From an uncultured Arcobacter sp. (GTDB lineage: Bacteria; Campylobacterota; Campylobacteria; Campylobacterales; Arcobacteraceae): a DNA stretch of 5,116 bases. Positions 1 through 4,335 of this stretch are shown here, piece by piece. The stretch is from positions 1 through 5,116 of the forward strand of contig CAJXWI010000228.1 of NCBI GenBank assembly GCA_913062735.1, in the 5' to 3' direction. The notes beneath the pieces were generated by a model that searched no databases, had not been told where the DNA came from, and saw only the letters and a program-made list of their open reading frames with translations. The position numbers and the translations under genes are program-made. The first letter of the stretch is position 1; the number at the start of each line of letters is the position of its first letter.

Positions 1-387
1 TGAATTTGAGTTTTTTAAGGCTTTATAAATTCTTTTTTTTTGTTCAAAAAAAATTTCATTTGAAAGCTTTTTTCCACTTTCGTTCAATAAAATATGTCTG
101 TGCCTTGAATCAAATTCACCTTTTTTCATAATTATTTTTTTGTTTTTAATTAAATCTTTCAAAATTCGATTTAAACTTTGTTTGGTAATTTTTAATTTTC
201 TTAGCAAACCAGAGACGGTTATTCCTTCATACCTTTCTATCAAATGAATAACTTTTTGATGAGCAATTCCAAAAGAGTGCTTTTTTAAAATTTTATTAGG
301 ATCTGCAAAAGTTTCTCTATAAGCATAAAACAATTGTTCGATTAAATCTTTAATTTGTTCATCTTTTAAATATAAAAGTTCTTTCAT
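1..387 (-). CDS. MarR-family winged-helix transcriptional regulator (3' end beyond window)
   Basis: This is a DNA-binding regulator of the MarR family, normally a homodimer that represses its own or neighbouring promoters and is released by a ligand or oxidant. The frame is open for 129 codons from ATG (complement of 385-387) to the left edge, so the C-terminal dimerisation helix is missing; the family is usually about 140-160 aa. The winged helix-turn-helix spans roughly residues 40-105. It includes ITKQSLNRILKDLIKN (67-82) as the recognition helix region and a wing with D93-S-R95-H-R97, matching the family D-x-R signature. The visible part has no cysteine, which argues against an OhrR-type thiol sensor with an N-terminal reactive Cys. 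No clear Shine-Dalgarno precedes the ATG (AT-rich ACCAATAAA). The superoxide-reductase gene lies upstream on the same strand, separated by a terminator. Its ligand and targets cannot be read from the sequence. Family assignment is confident; the exact start is less so. Confidence 0.85.
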   Translation of the reverse strand, partial: MKELLYLKDEQIKDLIEQLFYAYRETFADPNKILKKHSFGIAHQKVIHLIERYEGITVSGLLRKLKITKQSLNRILKDLIKNKKIIMKKGEFDSRHRHILLNESGKKLSNEIFFEQKKRIYKALKNSNS

Positions 388-505: not shown

Positions 506-889
506 TTAACTAACTGCTACTGTTTTCATTGTACTTTCCCAAACACCATGTTTAGTACAATAAGCTTGTGCACTTAATTTTAATTTAGATGAAGTAGGAA
601 CTATATTAAAAGTAACTTCAGCGTGGTTTTTTTCATTACCTAATGTACCAGGAACAAAATCAGCTCTTGCCAATAATGTTTCACCATTGTATAAAGCTAC
701 ATTAGAAATATAATGATCAAAATCATCTGGATGAGAATATTCATTTCCCATTTTTACAGTAACTTGAAACATTTCACCCGCTTGTGCATTTTCTTCACAG
801 TGAATGAATGGTGAGTGTCTATCTATTAAATCTTTTTTAGTTTCTCTCTCAATTGTATCTATATCGATATATTTATTAATTTTTGGCAT
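506..889 (-). CDS. Class II superoxide reductase-like protein (neelaredoxin/desulfoferrodoxin family)
   Basis: This is a small (127 aa) cytoplasmic non-haem iron protein with the Ig-like SOR fold, expected to reduce superoxide to hydrogen peroxide without making oxygen. The five expected ligands of the square-pyramidal Fe(Cys)(His)4 centre are visible: H25 in DRHSP, H53 and H59 in SHPDDFDHYI, then C111 and H114 in YCTKHGVWE near the C-terminus. There is no N-terminal four-cysteine rubredoxin-like (desulforedoxin) domain, so it is a one-iron, class II type. The canonical EKHxP segment is altered: D23-R24-H25-S26-P27 replaces the usual Glu-Lys before the His. This removes the lysine thought to steer superoxide and changes the Glu that ligates resting iron to Asp. 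AGGAG at 898-902 on the minus strand, 8 nt before the ATG, supports the start. The gene has its own -10 box and terminator, so it is probably monocistronic. SoxZ-like sulfur carriers share the fold but lack this His/Cys set. Family confident; activity inferred. Confidence 0.88.
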   Translation of the reverse strand: MPKINKYIDIDTIERETKKDLIDRHSPFIHCEENAQAGEMFQVTVKMGNEYSHPDDFDHYISNVALYNGETLLARADFVPGTLGNEKNHAEVTFNIVPTSSKLKLSAQAYCTKHGVWESTMKTVAVS

Positions 890-1144: not shown

Positions 1145-2473
1145 ATGAAAGTAATATTTTGTTTTTTCTTTTTTTTCTCTTTTCTTTTCTCCCAAACGAC
1201 AATAACACATATTAAAATAAATAATGCTATTTCACCAGGAACTGCTCAGTACCTAAGTGATGCGTTTAAAGAAAGTAAAGAAAACAAATCATCATTACTT
1301 TTAATTGAACTTGATACTCCAGGGGGCTTAGCCACTTCAATGAGGGAAATGATTCAAAACATCTTAAATTCGCATATCCCTGTAATCATGTTTGTCTCTC
1401 CCAAAGGTTCACGAGCAGCAAGTGCTGGCACTTATTTAATGTATGCCTCTCATATTGCAGCAATGACTCCAGGTAGTAACATTGGAGCAGCCACCCCTGT
1501 TAATTTAATGCAAGCTCCAAAAGCTCCCAAAATAAGAGAAAAAGTTGGTGATAAAGACGAGCCTCTTAGTAAAAAAATAATAGATACAAAAACAGCTATG
1601 GAAAAAAAAGTCATTAATGATGCAATTGCTTATATAAAAAGTATTGCTGAATTTAAAGATAGAAATATTACTTGGGCTATAAAAGCCGTAAAAGAAGGAG
1701 AAAGTATTTCTTCAAAAGAAGCTTTGGCATTAAATGTAATTGACTTTATTGCCGTAGATGTGAAGGATTTATTAAAACAAGTTGATAATAAAGAAGTTGT
1801 TATTAATGCAGAAATAGTGCGTATTAATACAAAAGATGTAGAGCTTAAATTTTTTGAAGCTTCTTTAAAAACAAAAGTATTAATGATTATCTCTAATCCC
1901 AGTTTTGCGTATGCTTTTTTAATACTTGCAATGTATGGAATATTCTTTGAGATGATGAATCCTGGGTCTATTTTTCCAGGTGTTATTGGTGCATTTTTTG
2001 CACTACTTTCAATGTATGCTTTAAACATTTTGCCTTTCTCTTATGTTGGATTATTATTAATCTTACTGGGAATTGCTTTTATGTTAAGTGAAGTATTTAT
2101 TTCTGGTTTTGGTATTTTAGGTTTAGTAGGACTTCTTTCTTTTACCTTGGGTTCTTTTATGTTATTTGATAAAGAAACCTTGGGGCAAGATATATCTTCT
2201 TCTTTAATAATATCCTTTTCCCTTGTTTCTTTGGCTTTTTTTGTTTTTTTGATGGCATTTTTATTGAAGATAAGAAAAAAAGATCCTGTTAGTGGAATAA
2301 ATACCCTTCTTGGTGTAAAAGTCGAAATACTTTCAATTGGTAAAAATAATTATAAAGTTTCATGTAATGGTGAGATTTGGAATGCTATAAGTGCAGATAA
2401 CTTAGAAATAAAAGAAAAAGCAATCATTACAAATATAAAATCTTTAATATTAGAAATAAGGAGAATAAAATGA
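1145..2473 (+). CDS. nfeD: NfeD/STOPP-type membrane serine protease (ClpP-class, long form)
   Basis: This is a long-form NfeD protein, 442 aa, close to the length of the archaeal homologue PH1510. A Phe-rich signal peptide (residues 1-16, [16 protein letters not shown]) exports the ClpP-like domain, about residues 18-210. That domain carries the family motifs: [14 protein letters not shown] (56-69), the nucleophile Ser93 in [11 protein letters not shown] (90-100), [12 protein letters not shown] (108-119), and the probable general base Lys155 in KKVINDA (154-160), giving a Ser-Lys dyad. Four or five membrane segments follow (about 245-269, 273-296, 299-319, 321-341, 350-375). The C-terminal OB-fold NfeD domain (about 385-442) includes NGEIWNAIS (408-416). 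The protein should sit in the inner membrane with the protease domain outside the cytoplasm. Its stop overlaps the slipin start (ATGA), so the two are translationally coupled. Known relatives cleave the hydrophobic C-terminus of the partner stomatin; the same role is inferred here. Start chosen for the AAGGA at 1134-1138 and the signal peptide. Confidence 0.92.
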
Positions 2474-3213
2474 CTTCATTTATAATCTTATATATATTAA
2501 TCTTTGTTCTTGCTCTTTTGGCTTTATCTATTCGTATTTTAAGAGAATATGAAAGAGCAGTTGTTTTTACTCTAGGGAGGTTTTCAGGAGTAAAAGGGCC
2601 TGGATTAATACTTATTATTCCCTTGGTTCAACAAACAGTAAGAGTTGATTTAAGAACCATTGTTTTAGACGTTCCTACTCAAGATGTAATATCACATGAT
2701 AATGTATCTGTTCATGTAAATGCTGTTTTATATTTTAGAGTAGTAGACCCAGAAAAAGCGATTATTCAAGTAGAGAACTTTAAGAGTGCTACGAGTCAAT
2801 TAGCTCAAACAACGCTTAGGTCTGTTCTAGGTGGACATGAGTTAGATGAAATGTTAAGCGAAAGGGATAAATTAAATGCGGATATTCAAGAAATTTTAGA
2901 TAAACAAACAGATATCTGGGGAATAAAAATTTCTAATGTAGAAATAAAACATATTGACTTGGACGAAAGCATGATTAGAGCCATTGCAAAACAAGCCGAA
3001 GCTGAAAGAGAACGAAGAGCTAAGGTAATTAATTCCAAAGGGGAATTAGAAGCCAGTGAGAATTTATTAAAAGCTGCAAATATAATAAGTCAAAATCCTC
3101 AAGCCATACAGTTACGATATTTGCAAACCTTAAATGATATTTCAAGTGATAGAACAAACACTGTAGTATTCCCTTTCCCCAGTGATTTAGCTTCTTTATT
3201 AAAAACAAAATAA
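2470..3213 (+). CDS. Slipin (stomatin/prohibitin SPFH-family membrane protein)
   Basis: This is a bacterial/archaeal slipin, 247 aa, that oligomerises at the membrane and is thought to organise microdomains or help membrane-protein quality control with NfeD. An N-terminal hydrophobic segment (about residues 4-20) anchors it. The SPFH domain follows (about 22-175): [14 protein letters not shown] (27-40), [12 protein letters not shown] (43-54), [21 protein letters not shown] (59-79) and [10 protein letters not shown] (88-97). A charged coiled-coil-prone stretch, [15 protein letters not shown] (173-187), and a helical tail lead to a hydrophobic C-terminus, [15 protein letters not shown] (230-244). 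That tail corresponds to the segment of archaeal p-stomatin cut by its NfeD partner. AAGGAG (2458-2463), 6 nt before ATG, lies in the end of nfeD; the ATGA overlap indicates coupling. No strong terminator follows. The first 100 bp of the downstream spacer hold only a short AT palindrome and a G6 tract. Confidence 0.92.
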
Positions 3214-3314
3214 ATCAAGAGAAAGATTTAGCTCTAGTGATTACTGTAAAAATATGAATATTTAAAGAAAGGGGGGTAGGCTTGTAGACGATAAAATGCC
3301 TGCTAGATATAAAA

Positions 3315-3389
3315 CTACTGTTCTTTTTTCTTTTTTAAATCTTTACTTGCATCTGAATCTATATTATCAATATTAAAATATTTTGTCAT
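3315..3389 (-). CDS. Candidate 24-aa microprotein under a Fur-like box
   Basis: This short open frame on the minus strand encodes 24 aa, starting MTKYFNIDNIDS and ending KDLKKKKEQ before TAG (complement of 3315-3317). I do not recognise a family. The N-terminal half is rich in Asn and Asp, and the tail is strongly basic (KKKK); there is no membrane segment, cysteine or signal peptide. Support for translation is the signal set-up: AAGGA (complement of 3396-3400) 6 nt before ATG, a TATACT -10 at 3410-3415 giving a leader of about 14 nt, and a Fur-type palindrome at 3434-3458 over the -35 region. Such ordered spacing is unlikely to be pure chance, but a frame of this length alone proves nothing. 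It could instead be the start of a regulatory RNA. A terminator downstream is not clear. Confidence 0.45.
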   Translation of the reverse strand: MTKYFNIDNIDSDASKDLKKKKEQ

Positions 3390-3409
3390 TTTTTATCCTT
3401 TTAGTAATG

Positions 3410-3415
3410 AGTATA
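3410..3415 (-). promoter_or_regulatory. -10 box for the micro-ORF
   Basis: On the minus strand this reads TATACT, five of six matches to the -10 consensus, set in TTGTATACT, which resembles the TTGTATAAT of the SOR promoter. A start near 3403 puts the Shine-Dalgarno at 3396-3400 and the ATG at 3389 in good order. The -35 position (about 3433-3438) falls at the edge of the Fur-like palindrome and is a poor match by itself. Confidence 0.45.
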
Positions 3416-3433
3416 CAAAAAAGAAGATTAAAA

Positions 3434-3458
3434 CTTTATGATAACTATTATCATAAAG
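3434..3458. promoter_or_regulatory. Fur-box-like palindrome in the micro-ORF/thiL divergent region
   Basis: The arms CTTTATGATAA (3434-3444) and TTATCATAAAG (3448-3458) are perfect 11-bp inverted repeats around CTA. The core, TGATAACTATTATCA at 3439-3453, differs at one specified base from the Fur 7-1-7 consensus TGATAATNATTATCA. It covers the -35 zone of the minus-strand micro-ORF promoter, where bound Fur would block transcription under iron-replete conditions. It also lies 43 bp upstream of the thiL start codon and could affect that promoter. A terminator reading is less likely: the stem is AT-rich and no gene on the minus strand precedes it. Fur binding is inferred from the motif. Confidence 0.65.
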
Positions 3459-3485
3459 AAAATAAGTTGCTTCATTAGCTAGTTA

Positions 3486-3494
3486 TGCTAATAT
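3486..3494 (+). promoter_or_regulatory. Possible extended -10 promoter of thiL
   Basis: TGCTAATAT fits the extended -10 pattern TGn followed by a hexamer (TAATAT) with four of six consensus bases. It ends 7 nt before the thiL ATG, so transcription would begin at or next to the start codon. That would explain why no Shine-Dalgarno precedes it. The match is moderate and the region is AT-rich. Confidence 0.35.
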
Positions 3495-3501
3495 TCATTT
3501 T

Positions 3502-4335
3502 ATGAACAAAGAAGATTTTTTTATTAAACAATTTATACCAGCAAAGAAAGAAAATAACTTCATTGGTGATGATGCCGCCGTAGTTGGTGAAGATGTTTAT
3601 TCCATGGACGCATTTTTTGAAAATGTACATTTTAAAAGAAAATGGTTTACATTAAAACAAATTGCAAAAAAAGCAATGTTGGTTAATATTTCAGATGCAA
3701 TAGTAATGAATGCTATTCCTAAATATGCACTTTTATCTGTAGCTATTCCAAAAAACTACAGTAAAAAAGATTTAAAAGAACTAGCAAGTGGATTTAAGGT
3801 AGTTGCAAAACAATATGGTATTACTATTATTGGTGGAGATACAATAGTAAATGAAAAACTTGATATTTCAATTACTATTATTTCAAAAACAAAAAAAGCA
3901 ATTTACCGCACAGGTACAAAAAAAAATGATCTTTTGTGTTATACAGGATCTTTGGGTGAGTGTAAAAGAGATTTAGAAATTCTTCTAAATGATGGAAATA
4001 TTCCTTCAAAATCTAAGTTTATAAAACCTAAGTTAAAAGCTGCATTCTTTTATGAAATTGTGCCTTATATTCATTCTGCTTTAGATATTTCAGATGGTTT
4101 GGTTTTTGAGTTAGAGCGTTTAAGTAAAGCAAATAATTTGGGTTTTGAATTCTTTTATGATTTAAAAGAAGATATTATTACCTCAGGCGAAGAATATGAA
4201 ATATTATTTTCTTTTAAAGAAAATAATAAAAAAATTATAGAAAAAATTGCAAAAAAACATAAAGTAGAATTAAATATTTTTGCTAAAACAGTGAAGGGCT
4301 CTTATGAAAGCCCTTTTAATAACCACCACTTTTAA
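3502..4335 (+). CDS. thiL: Thiamine-monophosphate kinase
   Basis: ThiL phosphorylates thiamine monophosphate with ATP to thiamine diphosphate, the last step of cofactor synthesis, in the cytoplasm. It belongs to the PurM/SelD-like fold. Motifs in order: FIGDDAAVV (20-28), SMDAFFENVHF (34-44, usually TTDTLVEGVHF), VNISDAI (61-67), GGDT (111-114, metal/phosphate binding), DISDGL (195-200) and SGEEYEILF (228-236, usually GGEDYELLF), ending in NNHHF like the family's terminal GxDHF. At 277 aa it is shorter than the usual 300-330 aa, mostly through trimmed loops after the GGDT region, and appears complete at both ends. No Shine-Dalgarno precedes the ATG, and an in-frame TAA at 3463-3465 with no intervening ATG rules out an upstream ATG start. 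It runs directly into truD, 9 nt apart. No THI-box (TPP riboswitch) is visible upstream. The Gly-to-Ser and Asp-to-Glu changes are conservative and may be lineage features. Confidence 0.9.
   Translation: MNKEDFFIKQFIPAKKENNFIGDDAAVVGEDVYSMDAFFENVHFKRKWFTLKQIAKKAMLVNISDAIVMNAIPKYALLSVAIPKNYSKKDLKELASGFKVVAKQYGITIIGGDTIVNEKLDISITIISKTKKAIYRTGTKKNDLLCYTGSLGECKRDLEILLNDGNIPSKSKFIKPKLKAAFFYEIVPYIHSALDISDGLVFELERLSKANNLGFEFFYDLKEDIITSGEEYEILFSFKENNKKIIEKIAKKHKVELNIFAKTVKGSYESPFNNHHF
4294..4317 (+). terminator. Terminator-like hairpin inside the 3' end of thiL
   Basis: AAGGGCT (4294-4300) pairs perfectly with AGCCCTT (4309-4315) across an 8-nt loop, and T4314-4317 gives a run of four T. It lies within the last 14 codons of thiL, before its stop. 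With so short a U-run, and ribosomes translating through it, it may attenuate the thiL-truD message rather than end it. It could also be a chance product of the codons used. Confidence 0.4.

Follow-up and report, generated by a model that had tools for sequence, protein, structure and literature searches.

The segment at positions 3315–3458 of the 5,116-nucleotide stretch of Arcobacter DNA analysed here (the window) is real, conserved DNA. It is best explained, with good confidence from sequence comparison, as the front part of a second superoxide reductase (SOR) gene, with its promoter region, its operator and ~18 recognizable initial codons, lying at the ancestral place of SOR on the thiL side after an nfeD-slipin pair came to separate it from the intact SOR. 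The region is probably an evolutionary remnant (hereafter the stub), and a new regulated mini-protein is the less likely reading. The individual tests are each modest on so short a stretch; together they agree. The genes and elements concerned are these:

506–889, minus strand: intact superoxide reductase, with the Desulfoferrodox domain at residues 21–119 and its core promoter kept
1145–2473, plus strand: nfeD-like membrane protein, one of the pair between SOR and the stub
2470–3213, plus strand: slipin (SPFH/Band 7), the other of this pair
3315–3389, minus strand: 24-codon frame MTKYFNIDNIDSDASKDLKKKKEQ, of which codons 1–18 align with SOR residues 4–21
3396–3400, minus strand: Shine-Dalgarno sequence AAGGA, 6 nt from the ATG, kept as AAAGGA in the relatives G001 and G013
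3410–3415, minus strand: -10 element of the stub promoter (TATACT), which aligns with the -10 of relatives' SOR
3434–3458, strand-neutral: palindrome CTTTATGATAA-CTA-TTATCATAAAG, a putative Fur/PerR-type operator
3486–3494, plus strand: presumed extended -10 of thiL, TGCTAATAT, just before the thiL ATG (3502)
3502–4335, plus strand: thiL (AIRS domain), the divergent neighbor of SOR in relatives

An earlier note on this DNA had described a Fur-type box ahead of a minus-strand microprotein frame, and inspection of the window sequence confirmed all of its elements and their coordinates. The arms of the palindrome (3434–3444 and 3448–3458) are 11 nt each, 100% complementary and separated by a 3-nt gap; its core, TGATAACTATTATCA (3439–3453), differs from the Fur 7-1-7 consensus TGATAATNATTATCA by one mismatch, with 13/14 specified bases in agreement. 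Among 3000 dinucleotide shuffles of the spacer (3214–3501), a perfect palindrome with arms of at least 11 nt appeared 15 times and a Fur match of 13/14 not once, which places this match above chance; when the whole window was shuffled, 25 of 200 shuffles held a Fur match at two or fewer mismatches. The TATACT element, the AAGGA 6 nt before the ATG (3389–3387) and a frame of 24 codons, the stop of which ends at 3315, are likewise all present as claimed. A Shine-Dalgarno sequence, ATG and 20-codon frame arose in 54/2000 spacer shuffles, however, so that the frame by itself is weak evidence. The proposal that the box covers promoter elements holds in that the palindrome overlaps the -35 place (3433–3438, at 17-nt spacing) of the TATACT promoter. 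No -35 consensus was found at 3433–3438, and a promoter scan of 3000–3800 listed a single site, which was not the TATACT promoter.

The frame was found in two of 104 family genomes: G001, the MAG Arcobacter sp. NORP36 (locus L001), the thiL of which is 92% identical to that of the window, and G013. These searches used sets of 12, 4 and 104 genomes, together with a combined box and frame pattern in the 104, and gave no convincing copy in the other 102. Weak matches in G002, G005, G014, G043 and G084 (E 0.1–0.7) lie inside longer open frames (111–767 aa) and were taken as chance. In G001 and G013, the closest two relatives found, the palindrome is present together with TATACT, AAAGGA and the frame (MTKYFNMDIIDTDASKDLAKKQ), and the pairing of a Fur-type palindrome with a plausible minus-strand promoter and start is conserved in both. 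All 25 bases of the palindrome are identical between the window and G013, and the same is true of G001; the 112-nt spacer 3390–3501 differs from that of G013 at 15 positions, none of which falls within the 25-bp palindrome. A search with this 112-bp spacer gave matches in 74/104 genomes, which are short and uninformative outside G001 and G013. The relatives share part of the acidic, Asn-rich start to which the earlier note drew attention (MTKYFNMDIIDTDASKDLAKKQ in G013) but not the KKKK tail; the frame is 24 codons long in the window and 22 in G001 and G013, with an unconserved tail. For about 85 nt past the frame (about 3230–3314), a stretch that includes a GGGGGG run, G001 and G013 have no equivalent; in them the stop of the frame lies near the slipin stop.

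The earlier note recognized no family for the frame, a view that has to be revised. The frame matches the start of the SOR gene, and the DNA ahead of the frame matches the SOR control region; Pfam gave no match in the 24 residues. The intact SOR of the window starts MPKINKYIDIDTIERETKKDLIDRHSP, and 8 of 18 aligned residues are identical in the frame. When the window SOR was searched by tblastn against 20 sequences, the frame was the second match in all three carriers (the window, G001 and G013), at 3392–3336 with 47% identity and E 0.54 in the window and at E 0.54–1.3 across the carriers, values that are not significant alone. The resemblance was spotted before it was tested. Scored against 12 SOR N-termini, the window frame was equaled by 0/5000 shuffles, and that of G013 by 1/5000 by maximum and 0 by mean. 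A profile of the SOR N-terminus, made from 4 distinct N-termini from 38 loci with the three carriers excluded, put the window frame at the top of 16,337 frames (overlapping loci included) once 61 SOR frames had been set aside, with 13.3 bits and E 0.059; the G001/G013 frame came next at 8.1–8.3 bits, only slightly higher than the background frame that followed (8.0).

By its N-terminal sequence, which stands above shuffles and background, and by its place and orientation, divergent beside thiL, the frame thus qualifies as the 5' part of an SOR gene. With the SOR of Arcobacteraceae (desulfoferrodoxin, PF01880) the stub shares its place by thiL, its orientation, the order of palindrome, -10 and Shine-Dalgarno sequence, and the residues K-Y-x-x-I-D-x-I ... 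K-D-L. Unlike these enzymes, it is recognizable over the first 18 codons only, with no recognized counterpart thereafter, and its palindrome is centered ~57 nt from the start rather than the 65–70 nt seen in relatives' SOR. The SOR-like part ends where the Desulfoferrodox domain starts, and the stub therefore lacks the domain that would mark a working enzyme. The differences between frame and SOR are mostly common to all three carriers, which suggests an old remnant or something that has been kept.

The upstream DNA points to the same ancestry. A DNA profile was built from relatives' SOR-thiL spacers with 20 SOR codons (29 spacers of 80–200 nt kept, 28 distinct used, the three carriers excluded), and in the window it gave two matches above the inclusion threshold, one at the intact SOR (954–830) and one at the stub (3460–3340). 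The former has an E value of 2.4e-21 and begins at model position 71, which indicates that the palindrome is missing from it. The latter (E 0.0089 after a large composition correction) spans model positions 54–192 of 193 and is colinear across palindrome, -10, Shine-Dalgarno sequence, ATG and codons. The stub scored 7.8 bits in the window and 13.4 bits in G013, scores reached by 0/1000 shuffles of each. Among 345 promoter segments of the fetched loci (taken from frames of at least 100 residues with an ATG start and no N), 38 outscored that of the window and all 38 belong to SOR; the best of the other 307 scored 6.9 against 7.8 for the window, and that promoter has a similar palindrome.

Gene order in the family is consistent with this assignment. 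SOR was found in 80/104 family genomes, and the best 30 of these 80 loci (L047–L076) comprise 2 carriers and 28 others, 22 of which have SOR divergent beside thiL; the remaining 6 have no thiL within the fetched stretch. All three carriers have nfeD and slipin between SOR and thiL. In the genus mates G002 (L002/L054) and G014 (L004 being taken as G014 from agreeing SOR coordinates), SOR adjoins thiL, and the nfeD-slipin pair lies ahead of a different gene on a separate contig. The adjacency of SOR and thiL in relatives, taken with the pair between them in the carriers, indicates that the micro-frame stands at the likely ancestral place of SOR. The left flank of SOR differs too, with a MarR-like gene in the window (1–387, minus strand) and a PpnP-type gene in G013. 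The SOR-nfeD spacer of the window holds an inverted repeat at 1018–1050 (TCCTAAGT...ACTTAGGA), perhaps a terminator or hairpin; that of G013 has a different sequence, in which an inverted repeat was also seen by eye.

The palindrome was compared with the SOR-thiL spacers of relatives, a set of 32 (41 loci less 8 with SOR without thiL and L005, which has no SOR) of which 30 are distinct. The motif AGGATAAnnnTTATCCT is present at 12/14 or better in 16/30, against 0.04 expected from mononucleotide shuffles, and these 16 palindromes are centered 65–70 nt from the SOR start but 62–111 nt from thiL. The other 14 spacers, genus mates among them (10/14), fall below 12/14. The window palindrome matches this motif at 12/14 and the Fur motif at 13/14, and on the best reading of these sequences it is the counterpart of AGGATAAnnnTTATCCT before SOR in relatives. 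Upstream of the intact SOR of the window no such palindrome was found, the best match being 9/14.

This phasing bears on a different account, in which the palindrome serves thiL (and truD) as operator and the minus-strand frame is open by chance. The presumed thiL promoter does lie directly beside the palindrome, and the start and frame features arise in shuffles at the frequency given above. The relatives' palindrome is nevertheless phased with SOR and not with thiL; the -10-like element before thiL is found in 29/30 relatives' spacers (by a loose pattern), including the 84–85-nt spacers of L007, L063, L068 and L069, which keep it without a palindrome; and a chance frame would leave the likeness to SOR unexplained. 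We consider a thiL operator beside a chance frame to be quite unlikely.

The protein that would act at this site may be Fur, PerR or another. Like a Fur box (7-1-7) or PerR box, the window palindrome scores 13/14 and overlaps a minus-strand -35 place; unlike a Fur box, the relatives' AGGATAAnnnTTATCCT is a poorer Fur match (11/14 in 5 perfect copies). Genome-wide, the Fur pattern at one mismatch is no commoner than its reversed control in G001 (9/8 vs 9/8) or G013 (11/11 vs 10/11). Several near-matches to it lie within ~10 kb in each of these genomes, by Fur-family and imelysin genes (assigned by Pfam in G013, with the same genes recognized in G001 by sequence). For C. jejuni, the boxes of PerR and those of Fur are described as alike and hard to distinguish (PMC4518328), and katA, rrc and ahpC are reported to be under PerR and/or Fur (PMC4518328, PMC4491227). 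In G063, SOR adjoins an AhpC-type peroxiredoxin and a Fur-family gene, a neighborhood that fits Fur/PerR-type control of SOR.

Related palindromes occur elsewhere in the fetched loci. A class of the form TAAGAYAAnnnTTATCCTA, at ~1501 in L093 and L095–L098, resembles the SOR palindrome. In L093 and L095–L097 it lies after a thiC-type gene and shortly before NUBPL/Mrp-type iron-transfer ATPase genes (the assignment being checked by Pfam in L097 only), and in L098 it precedes a thiol-peroxidase-like gene of the Redoxin family; the sites of this class in L090, L092, L094 and L101 have no such clear gene context. A redox/iron regulon of Arcobacteraceae is one possible interpretation of these sites. 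An identical copy of the palindrome region, 23 bases long (19 bases in another comparison), is present in G092 (L104 2561; G092:C2:309557-309579), with a second Fur-like site, and precedes frames of 68 and 254 aa; in G013 (L027) a perfect copy of the palindrome core stands ahead of another frame.

Iron- and stress-induced small proteins are a known class in bacteria, which share a short frame behind a metal-type operator. The stub could be read as such a gene, whether unrelated to SOR or born from the stub: a working Fur-controlled micropeptide, repressed in iron-rich cells and translated from the start behind AAGGA when iron is short. Operator, -10, Shine-Dalgarno sequence and frame are indeed kept in three genomes, and the frame is open in all of them, whereas the same changes placed at random introduce a stop in 40% of cases. 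Between the window and G013, codon positions 1, 2 and 3 carry 2, 2 and 5 changes over 22 codons, a distribution that could reflect some coding constraint. Over 21 hand-aligned codons there are 3 synonymous and 4 nonsynonymous changes, where 1.15 synonymous changes are expected at random (P for 3 or more, 0.08); the comparison covers three sequences, and within the frame two of these are identical. Set against this are the want of a convincing match in 102/104 family genomes, the variable length and unconserved tail, and the similarity to SOR, which explains much of the frame sequence; unlike members of the class, the 24-codon frame, with its lack of a Pfam match, appears to be accounted for by SOR descent. 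We regard a working micropeptide as unlikely. We hold the same doubt about a more specific form of it, in which the SOR stub was exapted as an iron- or oxidant-controlled micropeptide or leader and the 18-residue SOR tail does something. The stub operator, promoter, start and frame have survived the divergence of at least two lineages and the intact SOR is without the operator, from which it can be argued that the tail may act; if so, it might, for example, bind the partner of SOR or pace thiL transcription.

A Fur-controlled small RNA had also been suggested; it would start near 3403 and extend into the 3' end of slipin, and the orientation of the promoter would yield a transcript antisense to the end of slipin. 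The RNA 3402–3214 folds worse than 194/200 of its shuffles (z +1.83), however, no Rfam family matched and no terminator was found in 3000–3800, and the ~85 nt beyond the frame are peculiar to the window among the carriers. On the folding, Rfam and terminator results we rejected a dedicated regulatory RNA, which we consider very improbable.

The intact SOR of the window has a history of its own. In the SOR tree it does not group with the SOR of G001 and G013 but stands beside that of G063, without firm support (88/85, long branch). Residues 65–96 are identical to the G063 protein at 31/32 positions and to that of G013 at 25/32, whereas residues 1–32 match that of G013 at 31/32 and the first 64 residues at 57/64. 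Wholesale replacement from a G063-like donor was rejected on the G013-like character of these first 64 residues, which makes a mosaic SOR more likely.

Returning to the remnant of a second SOR copy, a plausible course of events can be outlined. SOR would have been copied by duplication, and the copy truncated as nfeD-slipin moved in, leaving the stub beside thiL. A Fur-family protein (Fur or PerR) would bind the palindrome and, because this overlaps the -35 place, would repress the stub promoter. If it is still transcribed, the stub would give a peptide that stops before the catalytic domain and so would not be an enzyme. At present the site may act mainly on the thiL promoter, or be a relic beside it.

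The titles and opening lines of abstracts among the matches listed for Arcobacter with Fur, iron, small proteins and superoxide reductase hold no report on this locus. For scans for small genes, the locus illustrates that a conserved operator, promoter, Shine-Dalgarno sequence and short frame can be the displaced front end of a larger gene. For the organism, it indicates that the redox gene SOR has here been separated from a control site to which it stands in fixed phase in about half of the relatives examined, and the control of SOR may therefore have changed in this lineage. For the Arcobacteraceae, the comparison exposes a candidate SOR operator that can be tested against both Fur and PerR.
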